DNA from: Micromonospora sediminicola
GTDB taxonomy: Bacteria > Actinomycetota > Actinomycetes > Mycobacteriales > Micromonosporaceae
Direction of reading: 5' to 3'
Assembly (NCBI RefSeq): GCF_900089585.1
Contig: NZ_FLRH01000003.1
Span: forward strand, 1,721,001 to 1,785,000
DNA length: 64,000 nucleotides
Positions 2,958 through 64,000 of the stretch are shown here, in pieces. Under the pieces are notes generated by a model. The model was not told the origin of the DNA. It made no database searches and worked only from the letters and a program-made list of their open reading frames with translations. The translations under genes were made by a program, and so were the position numbers. Within the stretch, counting starts at the first letter, position 1. The number at the start of each line of letters is the position of its first letter.

Positions 2958-4129
2958 CTGATCTCCCCGTCCCGCTCGTGCAGATGCTCCACCGACCCGT
3001 CCCCGCCCGGTGGGGCGACGCCGTCGTCCGGGCCGTCGTGGTCCGGTGTCACCAGGCTGACCACCACCTCGTCCGGGCCGGCGACCACGGTCAGCCGGGC
3101 CCACCCTCGGGCGCCGGCGAGCGCCGCCGTCAGCGGGTCGGCCAGGCCCCGGCGCACCTCGACCGGCAGCGTCGGCGGGGTGCCGACCGCGACCAGCTCG
3201 ATCGGCAGGCCGTTCCGCTCGGCCAGGTCGGCGGCGGCGCGCAACTCGTGCAGCAGCGGGTCGGGCACGTCGTCCGACTCGGCGATCAACCGGCGCAGCC
3301 GGGCCGCGGCCAGCACCGCGCGGCGGCGTACCGCCGGGTCGGCCGGATCGGCGTCCCCGGCGGCCAGGGCGGCCAGCACCTCCTCGGCCGTGCCGCTGAC
3401 CAGCGCGAGCCGTTCCTGCCGTTCGCCGCGGGCCCGCTCGGCGGCCTCGCGCTCCGCGGCCACGGCCAGCACCGCCGCGGCGGTGCCGGCCCGGTCCCGG
3501 ACCAGGGCGGTCAGCGCCGCCGCGCCGGCGAAGACCGCCACCGGCAGGGTGGAGGTGCCGTAGACGTACATCGCGTAGCGGCTCAGGTCGGCCGGCGCGG
3601 TCGCGCCGTGGAGCACGACGGCGGCCAGCGCGATCGTCGCGTGCGCGGCGAGCAGCGCGAGCAGCCAGCGCACCGGCCGCCGCCAGAGCACCAGCAGGAA
3701 GAACCAGGCCAGGCCGCCCCACACCCAGTTGGCGGAGGTGAACAGGAACCGCCCGCCGGCCGCCGCGAACACCGCCGCGTCGACCACCAGCAGCACCGCG
3801 GCCAGTGGCCCGGCCGGGGGCAGGCCGCCACGCAGCAGGCGTACGCCGGTCGCGACGCCGACCAACGCGGTCACCAGCCAACCGGCGGCCACCACCGCCG
3901 GGGCGGCCATCCCGGGACCGGCCGCCAGCACCGCCGGCAGCCCGATCGCCAGGTGCCAGGCGAGCGCGATGACGACCGCGACGACCCGGGCGCCCCGGTC
4001 CGACGCGTCCGCCACCGCGTGCGCCTCCGGCGGGGCGGAGGCGGTCCCGGAACGCGCCGCCGGCCGGGGCCGGGGCAGGGCACGCGGCGCGGCGCCGGTG
4101 GTCACCGCCGTACCCGCCTCAGTCGTCAT
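2927..4129 (-). CDS. membrane sensor-like protein, degenerate histidine-kinase partner
   Basis: 400 aa. The first half has about five to six hydrophobic helices (residues about 45-215). A charged helical linker follows, then a C-terminal part that looks like an eroded HATPase domain. I see neither the dimerisation histidine motif (xxxRDLHD) nor the N-box or DxGxG signature that the upstream kinase has, so catalysis is doubtful. It starts 11 nt inside the 3' end of that kinase gene and overlaps the response regulator by 31 nt, so the three form one operon. A role as accessory sensor or pseudokinase modulating the true kinase is inference. Confidence 0.65.
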   Translation of the reverse strand: MTTEAGTAVTTGAAPRALPRPRPAARSGTASAPPEAHAVADASDRGARVVAVVIALAWHLAIGLPAVLAAGPGMAAPAVVAAGWLVTALVGVATGVRLLRGGLPPAGPLAAVLLVVDAAVFAAAGGRFLFTSANWVWGGLAWFFLLVLWRRPVRWLLALLAAHATIALAAVVLHGATAPADLSRYAMYVYGTSTLPVAVFAGAAALTALVRDRAGTAAAVLAVAAEREAAERARGERQERLALVSGTAEEVLAALAAGDADPADPAVRRRAVLAAARLRRLIAESDDVPDPLLHELRAAADLAERNGLPIELVAVGTPPTLPVEVRRGLADPLTAALAGARGWARLTVVAGPDEVVVSLVTPDHDGPDDGVAPPGGDGSVEHLHERDGEIRWTQTRWRRM

Positions 4130-31278: not shown

Positions 31279-32528
31279 GTGAGCCGGCCCCGGAGGCGTC
31301 GCCCAGCCCGTACCCCCTGGGGTTGCGGCTGGCCGGCCGGCGCGTGGTCGTGGTGGGCGGGGGAGCGGTCGCCACCCGGCGGGTGCCCGCGCTGCTCGAC
31401 GCGGGCGCGGACGTCCTGCTGGTGTCGCCCGAGCTGACCCCGGCGCTGCGCGCGCACGCCGACGCCGGCCGGCTGCGCTGGGAGCCGCGCCGGTTCGCCC
31501 CCGGCGACCTGGACGGCGCCTGGCTGGTCCAGGTGGCGGTGGACGACCGGGTGGCCGCCGCGGCGGTCAGCGCGGCCGCGGCCGAACGGCGGATCTTCTG
31601 CGTCCGCGCCGACGACCGGGCCGCCGCCAGCGCCTGGACGCCCGCCGTGACCCGGCACGGCCCGGTGACCGTGGCCGTCCTCGGCGGCGGCGACCCGCGC
31701 CGGGCGATGACCGTCCGCAACGCCGTCCGCGACCTCCTGGGCGCAAGGAAGGGCCCCTTGTTAACGCCTCCGGTAGAGGAAGGGGCCCCTTTTAACACCA
31801 CGGGCGGTCGGGTTGCGCTGGTGGGCGCCGGGCCGGGCGATCCGGAGCTGATCACCGTGAAGGGCTGGCGGCTGCTCACCGAGGCCGAGGTGGTGGTCGC
31901 CGACCGGCTCGTCCCGGGGCTGCTCCTGGACGAGTTGCGGCCGGACGTCGAGCTGGTGGACGCCTCGAAGATCCCGTACGGGCCGTCGCGCACCCAGGAG
32001 GAGATCAACCGCATCCTGGTGGACCGGGCCCGGGCCGGCAAGGTGGTGGTCCGGCTCAAGGGCGGCGACCCGTACGTCTTCGGGCGCGGCGGCGAGGAGT
32101 TGCTGGCCTGCGCCGAGGCCGGTGTGCCGGTGACCGTGGTCCCGGGGGTCACCAGCGCGGTCGCGGTGCCCGGGGTGGCCGGCGTGCCGGTGACCCACCG
32201 GGGCGTGGCGCACGAGTTCACCGTGGTCTCCGGACACGTCGCACCGGATTCGCCGGCGTCGCTCGTGCGCTGGGAGGCCCTGGCCGGGCTGCGCGGCACG
32301 CTGGTGGTCCTGATGGGCCTGAAGAACCTGGCCGCGATCGCCGCCACCCTGATCGCGCACGGCAAGCCGGCCGACACCCCGGCCGCGGTGATCCAGGAGG
32401 GCACCACCGCCGCCCAGCGGACGCTGCGCTCAACCCTCGCCACGGTCGCCGCCGACGTCGAGGCCGCCGCGCTGCGCCCGCCCGCGATCGTGGTGATCGG
32501 CGACGTGGTCCACGCCCTGACCCCCTGA
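31275..32528 (+). CDS. cysG: sirohaem synthase: precorrin-2 dehydrogenase fused to uroporphyrinogen-III methyltransferase
   Basis: 417 aa. Residues 1-155 are the NAD-dependent dehydrogenase/ferrochelatase half (RRVVVVGGGAVATRRV). Residues 178-417 are the SUMT half, with VALVGAGPGDPELITVKG, VRLKGGDPYVFGRGGEE and VPVTHRGV. The linker, residues 158-174, is encoded by a 52-bp dispersed repeat (31745-31796) read in frame. It makes precorrin-2 and can continue to sirohaem, feeding both cobalamin and sulfite/nitrite reductase cofactors. GTG start overlaps the cobT stop. Confidence 0.92.
   Translation: MSEPAPEASPSPYPLGLRLAGRRVVVVGGGAVATRRVPALLDAGADVLLVSPELTPALRAHADAGRLRWEPRRFAPGDLDGAWLVQVAVDDRVAAAAVSAAAAERRIFCVRADDRAAASAWTPAVTRHGPVTVAVLGGGDPRRAMTVRNAVRDLLGARKGPLLTPPVEEGAPFNTTGGRVALVGAGPGDPELITVKGWRLLTEAEVVVADRLVPGLLLDELRPDVELVDASKIPYGPSRTQEEINRILVDRARAGKVVVRLKGGDPYVFGRGGEELLACAEAGVPVTVVPGVTSAVAVPGVAGVPVTHRGVAHEFTVVSGHVAPDSPASLVRWEALAGLRGTLVVLMGLKNLAAIAATLIAHGKPADTPAAVIQEGTTAAQRTLRSTLATVAADVEAAALRPPAIVVIGDVVHALTP
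31745..31796 (+). repeat. 52-bp GGGGCCCC/TTAAC dispersed repeat inside cysG
   Basis: The unit begins AAGGAAGGGCCCC, has TTAACGCCTCCGGTAGAGG in the middle and ends GGGGCCCCTTTTAAC. Its first 35 nt match 63966-64000 apart from three positions, and the full unit aligns without gaps to the reverse complement of 46001-46052 (about three quarters identical). Here it is wholly coding, in the linker between the two CysG domains. Confidence 0.85.
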
Positions 32529-46000: not shown

Positions 46001-46053
46001 GTTAACAGGGGGCCCCGCCCATACCGGAAGCGTTAAGCGGGGGCCCCGCCTTT
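46001..46053 (-). repeat. GGGGCCCC/TTAAC dispersed repeat overlapping the Lrp 3' end
   Basis: Read on the reverse strand the unit begins AAAGGCGGGGCCCCCGC, continues TTAACGCTTCCGGTAT and ends GGGGCCCCCTGTTAAC. It aligns gap-free over 52 nt to the cysG copy, with the same spacing of the two GGGGCCCC blocks. The first 21 nt encode the last six residues and the stop codon of the Lrp regulator. Confidence 0.8.
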
Positions 46054-46479
46054 CACGACCGGGTGCCAGGCCAGCGGGGTGGAGAGCACCATCGTGCTGG
46101 ACGGCTGGCCGTACGGGGCGAGCCGGTCGATGACCTCCTCGAACTCGCCCATCGACCCGGCCGCGACCTTGAGGAAGCTGCACGCGTCACCGGTGATCCG
46201 GTGGATCTCCATGATCTCCGGCCACTGCGCCACCCGGGGGTCGTTGAGGATGCAGCGCGAGCCGTAACAGGACATTCGGATCAGCGCCAGCACGGTCCGC
46301 CCGGCCCGGGTGAGGTCCACGTGGGCGTGGTAACCGGTGATCACCCCGGACTCCTCCAGCCGCCGGACCCGCTCCGCGACCGCCGGCGGGGACAGGTGCA
46401 CCCGGCGGGACAACTCGCTGTAGGAGAGCCGGGCGTCGGCCTGGAGCTCGCGCAGCAGCGCCCAGTCCATGTCGTCCAC
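46033..46479 (-). CDS. Lrp/AsnC-family regulator, likely of the kynurenine operon
   Basis: 148 aa. An N-terminal winged HTH (LLRELQADARLSYSELSRRV, LSPPAVAERVRRLEESGVI) precedes a RAM/AsnC ligand domain with IHRITGDACSFLKV. The C-terminus KGGAPA and stop come from a dispersed repeat. AAGGAAGG lies before the GTG at 46479; an ATG three codons later is possible. It is divergent from tryptophan dioxygenase with a 147-nt shared region, the layout of KynR-type control by kynurenine; that ligand is inferred. Confidence 0.88.
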   Translation of the reverse strand: MDDMDWALLRELQADARLSYSELSRRVHLSPPAVAERVRRLEESGVITGYHAHVDLTRAGRTVLALIRMSCYGSRCILNDPRVAQWPEIMEIHRITGDACSFLKVAAGSMGEFEEVIDRLAPYGQPSSTMVLSTPLAWHPVVKGGAPA

Positions 46480-47519: not shown

Positions 47520-48854
47520 ATGCACACCCCCGAGAGCGAAGCCCACCGGCGGGACGCCGCCGATCCCGGCCACCGCCACCTGTTCCACGTGCCGCCGGCC
47601 GAGGGCGGGCGCCATCCCGACGTGGCGTACCTGGCCGGCAACTCGCTGGGCCTGCAACCCCGGGCCACCCGGGACGAACTCGTCGCCGACCTGGACGCCT
47701 GGCGCCGACTCGGCGTGGAGGGGCACCTGGAGGCGGAGCGGGCCTGGCTGCCGTACCACGAGCTGTTGACCGCACCGGCCGCGCGCCTGGTCGGCGCGCT
47801 GCCCACCGAGACCGTGGTGATGAACTCCCTCACGGTCAACCTGCACCTGCTGATGGTCAGCTTCTACCGCCCAGCGGGGGAGCGCACGACGATCGTCATC
47901 GAGGACAGCGCGTTCCCGTCGGACAGCTACGCGGTGCGCAGCCAGGCCCGCTTCCACGGCCTCGACCCGGGCGCCACGGTGGTGCGGCTCAAGCCCCGCC
48001 CCGGCAGCGACACGCTGGGCACGCAGGACGTCCTGGACTACCTGGCCCGCGAGGGGCACACGGTCGCGCTGCTGCTGCTCGGCGGCGTCAACTACCTGAC
48101 CGGCGAGCTGATGGACATTCCGGCGATCACCGCCGCCGGCCGGGCCGCCGGGGCGGTCGTCGGCTGGGACCTGGCGCACGCCGCCGGCAACGTGCCGCTG
48201 GCGCTGCACGACTGGGACGTCGACTTCGCCGCCTGGTGCTCGTACAAATACCTGAACTCCGGCCCGGGTGCCCTGGGCGGCGTCTTCGTCCACGAGCGAC
48301 ACCACGGCGACCCCTCGCTGCCGAGGTTCGAGGGCTGGTGGAGCACCGAGGCGGCCACCCGGTTCGAGATGACACCGGTGTCCCGGCCGCCGGCCACCGT
48401 CGAGGCGTGGCAGATCTCCAACCCGCCGATCTTCGCGATGGGCCCGGTGCGCACCTCGCTGGAGCTGTTCGACTCCGTCGGCATGCCCGCGCTGCGCGAG
48501 CGCAGCCTGCGGCTGACCGGCTGGCTGGAGGAACTGCTCGACGAGGTGACCCCGGGTCGGCCGCTGACCGTGGTCACCCCCCGCGACCCGGCCCGCCGCG
48601 GGTGCCAGCTCTCCGTCCGCATCGGTACGGGCAGCGCGAACGAGCTGACCAAGCGGCTGCGACACGAGCACGGCGTGATCGCCGACGCCCGGGAGCCGGA
48701 CATCGTCCGGTTCGCCCCGGTGCCCCTCTACTCGACGTACCACGACTGCTGGCGCGTCGCCGACGCGCTCGCCGCGACCGTGCCGGTGAGCGCGAGGAGT
48801 GAGCCGGGTTTGCGAGCCCCGCAGTCGCGAACGGAAGGCGGGCATTCCCGATGA
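47520..48854 (+). CDS. kynU: kynureninase with repeat-encoded C-terminal extension
   Basis: 444 aa PLP enzyme cleaving (3-hydroxy)kynurenine to (3-hydroxy)anthranilate and alanine. LAGNSLGLQPRAT, VVMNSLTVNLHLLM, VGWDLAHAAGNVPL and the Schiff-base lysine in WCSYKYLNSGPG (K243) are conserved. GGAGAG precedes ATG 47520. The last about 22 residues, from [12 protein letters not shown] onward, come from a 51-bp repeat read through in frame and extend past the usual end. The stop overlaps kmo (ATGA). Confidence 0.93.
   Translation: MHTPESEAHRRDAADPGHRHLFHVPPAEGGRHPDVAYLAGNSLGLQPRATRDELVADLDAWRRLGVEGHLEAERAWLPYHELLTAPAARLVGALPTETVVMNSLTVNLHLLMVSFYRPAGERTTIVIEDSAFPSDSYAVRSQARFHGLDPGATVVRLKPRPGSDTLGTQDVLDYLAREGHTVALLLLGGVNYLTGELMDIPAITAAGRAAGAVVGWDLAHAAGNVPLALHDWDVDFAAWCSYKYLNSGPGALGGVFVHERHHGDPSLPRFEGWWSTEAATRFEMTPVSRPPATVEAWQISNPPIFAMGPVRTSLELFDSVGMPALRERSLRLTGWLEELLDEVTPGRPLTVVTPRDPARRGCQLSVRIGTGSANELTKRLRHEHGVIADAREPDIVRFAPVPLYSTYHDCWRVADALAATVPVSARSEPGLRAPQSRTEGGHSR
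48786..48836 (+). repeat. 51-bp repeat, copy A, at the kynureninase 3' end
   Basis: Begins GTGAGCGCGAGGAGTGAGCC and ends GCAGTCGCGAACGGAA; identical over all 51 nt to 55280-55330. Here it is read within kynU and adds [16 protein letters not shown] to its C-terminus. It lies 14 nt before the kmo start. Confidence 0.9.
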
Positions 48855-54513: not shown

Positions 54514-55283
54514 TCGGGCCGGACATCGCCGGCATCGCGGAGAAGCTGGGTGCGGCGGCCGACGACGCCACCGCGATCCCGCAGCTCGCCGCCGAGACCG
54601 GCCTCGACGTCGACGCCGCGTACGCGGTGCAGACCGCGCTGGTGCAGCGCCGCCTGGACCGGGGTGAGCGGCTGGTCGGCCTCAAGATGGGGCTCACCAG
54701 CAAGGCCAAGATGGCCCAGGTCGGTGTGGACGAGGTGATCTGGGGCCGGCTGACCGACGTGATGCGGGTGCCCGACGGCGGCGGCGTCGACGTGAGCGCG
54801 TTCATCCACCCCCGGGTCGAGCCGGAGGTGGCGTTCCTGCTAAACCGGCTGCCCGACCCGGGCGAGCCGGTCGGCTCGTTCACCCGGGCGGTGCGCGCGG
54901 TCGCCCCGGCGATCGAACTGATCGACTCCCGGTACGCGAACTTCACCTTCTCCCTGCCGGACGTGGTCGCCGACAACACCTCGGCCGCCGCGTTCGTGGT
55001 CGGTCCCTGGTCGCCGGTGCCGGACGGGCTGGACAACCTCGGCGTGCTGCTGGAGATCGACGGGCGGGTGGCGCAGGTCGGGTCGACCGCCGCCATCCTC
55101 GGTGACCCGCGCCGCGCGCTCGACGAGGGCCTCCGGCTGGCCGGCCGGCACGGCGTCCGGCTGCGCAAGGGCTGGGTGTTCCTGGCCGGCGCGGCCACCG
55201 CCGCGGTGCCGCTACGCCCCGGGGCGCACGTCCGCGCCACTGTGGAGAAGCTGGGTTCCGCCTCCCTGAAGGCGCTCTCGTGA
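54510..55283 (+). CDS. 4-oxalocrotonate decarboxylase
   Basis: 257 aa, paralogous to the hydratase four genes upstream (FAH fold): [29 protein letters not shown] and [21 protein letters not shown]. In meta-cleavage pathways this decarboxylase forms a complex with the hydratase and turns 2-oxo-3-hexenedioate into oxopentenoate. Placement between aldolase and deaminase supports that assignment. Starts at an ATGA overlap and ends in GTGA with the RidA gene. Confidence 0.9.
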
Positions 55284-55330
55284 GCGCGAGGAGTGAGCCG
55301 GGTTTGCGAGCCCCGCAGTCGCGAACGGAA
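55280..55330 (+). repeat. 51-bp repeat, copy B, at the RidA 5' end
   Basis: Identical over 51 nt and in the same orientation and reading phase as 48786-48836. Here its first GTG is the start codon of the RidA gene, and its GTGA forms the coupling overlap with the decarboxylase stop. Confidence 0.9.
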
Positions 55331-55765
55331 AGCGGCCCGGCGACCGCCCGCGTGGTGGCCGGGAAGGCCGTGCCGCGGGGCGCGTTCCCGCACGTCAAGG
55401 TGGCCGGCGGGTTCGTCTTCGTCTCCGGCACGTCATCCCGCCGCCCGGACAACACGTTCGCCGGGGTGTCGGTGGACGAGTTCGGCACCACCGACCTGGA
55501 CATCCGGGAGCAGACCCGGGCCGTGGTCGGGAACATCCGGGACCTGCTCCGCTCGGTCGGCGCCGACCTGGCCGACCTGGTGCAGGTCACCAGCTACCTG
55601 GTCAACATGAACGACTTCGGTGGCTACAACGAGGTGTGGGCGGAGTTCTTCGACGCCACCGGGCCGACCCGGACCACGGTGGCCGTGCACCAGCTTCCGC
55701 ACCCGCACCTGCTGATCGAGATGCAGGCCGTCGCCCTACTTCCGTCGGGAGGTCCCCATGAGTGA
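55280..55765 (+). CDS. RidA-family 2-aminomuconate deaminase
   Basis: 161 aa. From about residue 25 it is a RidA/YjgF protein: [41 protein letters not shown] and a closing [13 protein letters not shown] with the substrate-binding Arg/Glu positions typical of the AmnD/NbaF deaminase group. The first 17 residues ([16 protein letters not shown] after the GTG) are encoded by a 51-bp repeat whose GTGA also overlaps the previous stop. Translation might instead begin at an internal GTG. Confidence 0.88.
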
Positions 55766-63965: not shown

Positions 63966-64000
63966 AAGGAAGGGCCCCCTCTTAACGCCTCCGGTAGAGG
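63966..64000 (+). repeat. GGGGCCCC/TTAAC dispersed repeat, cut by window
   Basis: AAGGAAGGGCCCCC, then CTTAACGCCTCCGGTAGAGG, identical at 32 of 35 positions to the first part of the cysG copy. It begins 6 nt after the DsbA-like gene's stop and runs off the right edge. Confidence 0.85.

Follow-up and report, generated by a model that had tools for sequence, protein, structure and literature searches.

What is a dispersed repeat doing in the last codons of a transcriptional regulator gene? In the window (the whole 64-kb stretch of DNA that was analyzed), a 19-mer scan gives three matches against 0.08 expected, and one of these lies across the 3′ end of a gene for an Lrp/AsnC-type regulator. The features discussed below are as follows:

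46033..46479, minus strand: Lrp/AsnC-type regulator gene, with Pfam domains to residue 134 of 148
46033..46053, minus strand: repeat-encoded Lrp codons K-G-G-A-P-A and TAA, the first base of the K codon being external
46001..46052, minus strand: two-unit repeat element, behind and inside the Lrp gene end
46032..46052, minus strand: unit 1 (AAGGCGGGGCCCCCGCTTAAC), source of the Lrp stop via TTAA
46001..46021, minus strand: unit 2 (GGGCGGGGCCCCCTGTTAAC region), pairing partner of unit 1
31745..31796, plus strand: second copy, in frame within cysG, in the linker that joins the NAD-binding domain to the tetrapyrrole methylase domain
63966..64000, plus strand: third copy, 5 nt past a native TGA and truncated where the window ends

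The Lrp reading frame ends GTG AAA GGC GGG GCC CCC GCT TAA, and the codons from AAA onward occupy 46053-46033, with only the first base of AAA outside the repeat. Set against the unit positions, these codons bear out the proposal of the preliminary description that the repeat gives the regulator its C-terminus and its stop; the six extra residues KGGAPA and the TAA are repeat-derived. Since the Pfam domains of the 148-residue protein are confined to residues 2-134, the added tail lies outside them. The gap-free alignment over 52 nt with the cysG copy, claimed in the same description, also holds, at ∼77% identity by hand count. We note that the cysG copy has a counterpart at the homologous place in one genome of a sister pair (G034) and a decayed one in the other (G045), which indicates that it is old. 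A separate repeat family is present in the window at 48786-48841 and 55280-55335; its core, GAGTGAGCCGGGTTTGCGAGCCCCGCAGTCGCGAAC, has 38 genome matches, is often tandem with copies ∼59-60 nt apart, and encodes the C-terminal tail of kynureninase past the last Pfam domain of that protein.

The simplest objection is that KGGAPA is the ancestral Lrp C-terminus and resembles the repeat by accident. The orthologue tails and the genome-wide unit count refute this reading, and we assign it a negligible probability. Among 80 named Lrp orthologues, 15 carry the element, always at the Lrp 3′ end, and none was found elsewhere in the ∼6 kb per species around these genes. No orthologue lacking the repeat has a KGGAPA tail; GGAP tails occur only in the window copy and in five of the 15 element carriers, and the tails are unrelated where the element is absent. 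In the 6.9-Mb genome (nearest named species, M. maritima), the unit is matched 346 times with ≤3 mismatches allowed, 182 times on one strand and 164 on the other, versus a single match for the reversed pattern that served as control.

The other element-carrying orthologues show that the same repeat can end the gene in different ways. In L080 and L101 it is read in a different frame, which yields the tail KEGPPVNASGRGRAP(S/A)-TAA, and L091 and L109 appear to retain decayed versions of that tail; in L073, L075, and L077, the Lrp gene stops at the first TAA of the element. Mapped on the orthologue tree, element presence changes state 8 times, with at least 6 of the changes forced by well-supported branches. 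The element offsets at the Lrp end range from 427 to 469, and in L100 the element is an inverted pair. These differences in position and architecture make several independent arrivals at the Lrp gene end likely, and losses also contribute to the pattern. In the M. chalcea group (L064, L065, and L067, behind position 3420), Lrp ends VKAPR-TAG, a tail that may, at a guess, be a deletion remnant of the element.

The family as a whole consists of elements of ∼52 nt that occupy some 150 sites in the genome, if not more, each built from two near-palindromic 21-nt units, AAGGMRGGGSCCCYKSTTAAC, at a 31-nt spacing and with a spacer close to GCCTCCGGTA. A contiguous 1.2 Mb (C3:1200001-2400000) contains 46 elements, mostly tandem pairs; five inverted-pair and four triple elements occur in the same stretch. 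Most inverted pairs are near-perfect palindromes of about 50 nt around AGACGTCT; such versions were seen at position 3439 of L100 and, in this genome, at C3:1647424, 1653458, 2028942, and 2308209. Only 4 of the 46 elements lie within genes, with the remainder at gene ends or in intergenic DNA. Rfam 15 gives no element match above the gathering score, only a single weak, chance-like one, and we found no earlier description of the repeat or its sequence in the open-access literature, although it may have been described elsewhere.

The placement of the elements relative to stop codons is precise. With gene ends taken from our own codon-model predictions (a simple caller), a same-strand stop ends between −8 and +3 at 34 of the 55 outward AAGG tips, compared with 2.3% of random noncoding positions, in agreement with the earlier suggestion that the element often sits at gene ends. 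Three stop registers are seen: a TGA followed after about 5 nt by AAGG, a stop immediately 5′ of AAGG, and a T preceding AAGG that creates a TAA. In comparisons with an element-poor genome (G032) and an element-free one (G012), the native stop codon is unchanged in nearly all cases of the TGA register, and in the TAA register the gene ends 0-8 codons early. The further suggestion that the element provides in-frame stops through TTAA holds in its first part, as 13 of the 49 TAA stops in the 1.2 Mb lie inside elements, but the internal TTAA that is used after read-through in Lrp is rarely the source (2 of 55 tips, at +20). The stop is usually a native TGA kept a few nucleotides upstream or the tip TAA (T-AAGG). 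A diverged family in another genus has 18 of 30 tips in the same placement. Gene orientation matters as well: 21 of 187 convergent junctions hold an element, as do 19 of 704 tandem and 1 of 186 divergent junctions (Fisher tests, p = 4e-7 for the convergent excess and p = 0.006 for the divergent deficit).

What, then, is placed there? Covariation between the two units reaches 177 cells for the outer pairing (140 ± 7 when shuffled) and 183 cells for the inner pairing (142 ± 8), where the shuffles ignore the relatedness of the copies. It is stronger between the units than inside them, so a single hairpin is the best reading of the whole element. For a consensus-like element the folding energy is −50.7 kcal/mol (z = −8.8); the Lrp copy (46001-46052) is no more stable than shuffled versions of it (z = −0.86). 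No clean U-tract follows the stem, as the 3′ arm ends YKSTTAAC with short T stretches only. Hairpin energies were compared across 42 ortholog pairs (Wilcoxon p = 6e-5). Behind the stop, the element-poor relative folds at −30.6 kcal/mol, whereas this genome has the element, at −29.7 kcal/mol, followed by DNA at −22.7, which is like random DNA (−22.3); loss of the native hairpin before or after arrival of the element would fit this comparison equally. Native hairpins in this genome begin at a median of 11 nt from the stop, 45% of them within 8 nt. The convergent bias, the avoidance of divergent junctions, and the native hairpin that has no counterpart behind the element are most simply read as the element filling the terminator position.

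We therefore favor, with moderate confidence, the explanation that this REP-like dispersed repeat is a portable two-way 3′-end hairpin, a putative terminator or 3′ stabilizer. The two 21-nt units would pair to form a single long hairpin that sits at the usual position of a 3′-end hairpin, directly behind the stop and preferably between convergent genes, where it may stand in for the native hairpin and act as a terminator or 3′-end stabilizer in both directions. An element landing at the native stop, or a few codons before it, would bring its own stop in the tip TAA or the inner TTAA, and an early landing may add a C-terminal tail such as KGGAPA in Lrp. The alteration of proteins thus looks like a by-product of an element occupying the 3′-end hairpin position.

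The same placement could reflect a post-transcriptional device, in which a hairpin at the stop delays the release of ribosomes or keeps out 3′ exonucleases while termination occurs elsewhere. Most elements do lie within 8 nt of the stop. A share of REP elements is likewise found no more than 15 nt from a stop codon, and E. coli REPs less than 16 nt from the stop lower translation (PMC12306157). The bias toward convergent junctions and the near absence of a native 3′ hairpin behind the element point to transcript ends instead, and the hairpin is usable from either strand; on this evidence we regard the device as improbable. We give still less credence to a double-stranded site bound by a nucleoid protein or by some other DNA-binding protein, with TTAAC as the putative recognition part. 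The TTAAC motif is 89-99% conserved in a genome of 73% GC, and 81 of the 132 TTAA sites in the 1.2 Mb fall in elements that make up 0.24% of the sequence, but a binding site leaves the stop-codon precision and the missing native hairpin unexplained.

The distribution of the repeat raises a different alternative. Unit matches in 61 Micromonospora genomes are bimodal: 22 genomes have 93-528, 37 have 0-9, and two have 26-27. Other Micromonosporaceae genera show the same patchy presence. That many species do without the repeat weighs against the portable-hairpin explanation. On a tree of 30 genomes, there are at least 7 switches between element-rich and element-poor states, and the sister pair G034 and G045, whose DNA is ∼95% identical over the compared region, have 241 and 9 matches. 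Two of five G045 sites compared with G034 retain a recognizable decayed element, which points to erosion as part of the loss pattern, and two others have a different hairpin. Purging of TTAA or GGGCCC as a cause of poor genomes gave no clear signal in the small G032 and G012 samples. In another genus the unit is of a GGGCACC type; among L341-L370 it is AAGGAAGGGCACCTTCTTAAC and nearly uniform, which suggests a recent burst or homogenization.

Such a distribution is what a selfish mobile element of the REP or MITE type, with no function for the host, might produce, if purifying selection spared the copies at gene ends and built-in stops softened the damage in last codons. The bimodal copy number with its repeated switches, the several, seemingly independent arrivals at the end of Lrp (one of different architecture), the genus-specific unit variants, and the termini GGTGT..ACACC, which are roughly inverted in Micromonospora and have a GGTGT flank that is not conserved in the other genus, are all consistent with this idea. 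Neutral insertions farther past stops or in promoters should, however, be common and are rare, native hairpins are missing behind the elements, and covariation maintains the hairpin. Nor do the two enzyme families covered by our mobilizer search track the repeat. The Y1 transposase of RAYT systems (PF01797) is absent here and in most rich genomes and present in several zero-copy genomes, and reverse transcriptase (PF00078) is absent from this genome and many rich ones. We therefore consider a purely selfish element rather unlikely. The portable 3′-end hairpin would itself have moved in the past. Homologous positions without the element are found in relatives, and among those compared there was no clean empty site from which to read a target-site duplication. 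The net length change at 31 sites (a gain of ≥40 nt at 13 and of ≤15 nt at 11) makes them look like a mixture, some resembling insertions and others replacements.

Several known systems come close to this family. Rickettsia palindromic elements are small palindromic repeats incorporated into proteins. MIRUs, small repeats of actinobacteria, overlap stop codons, link the stop and start codons of adjacent genes, and form tandem arrays; the Micromonospora repeats differ in sitting at what we infer to be transcript ends. The REP/BIME elements of enterobacteria and pseudomonads are likewise short, GC-rich palindromes that number in the hundreds and occur in direct or inverted pairs, and the repeat described here shares their many short imperfect palindromes, their tandem, inverted, or triple arrangement, and a mainly extragenic location; it has another sequence, lies much tighter at the stop, regularly supplies stops, and, unlike RAYT-mobilized REPs, is linked to no Y1 transposase family. 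The enterobacterial RU-1, RU-2, and RU-3 repeats are also small palindromes incorporated into proteins (PMC2759123), but, in contrast to these and to the Rickettsia elements, coding is a minority outcome in Micromonospora, where the repeats mostly lie at gene ends. The DUS/USS of Neisseria and Pasteurellaceae are interspersed repeats tied to terminator hairpins behind genes (PMC1852404); the Micromonospora unit, for which no tie to DNA uptake was seen, is longer and forms direct as well as inverted pairs. The I-shaped U-poor terminators of actinomycetes, as in Streptomyces clavuligerus, have a strong GC stem at the transcript end and no U-tract (PMC8269248), but their sequences are gene-specific, whereas in Micromonospora one repeated sequence fills the position. 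The number of its copies, its palindromic units, and the way these pair and are placed make the repeat REP/BIME-like, and its putative function resembles that of the U-poor actinomycete terminators and of repeat-borne terminators such as DUS/USS.

A bolder version of the portable hairpin, which we advance only tentatively and think possible but doubtful, is that a lineage-specific trans-acting system distributes a standard hairpin among the stop codons of a genome, at the expense of native terminators; more than 100 genes would then share one 3′ end, and sister species would rapidly gain or lose the whole set. If this were true, a repeat family would be taking over a basic signal, the end of the transcript, gene by gene, with stop codons and protein tails supplied along the way. 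Sister species that are rich and poor in the element, such as G034 and G045, make this takeover idea testable.
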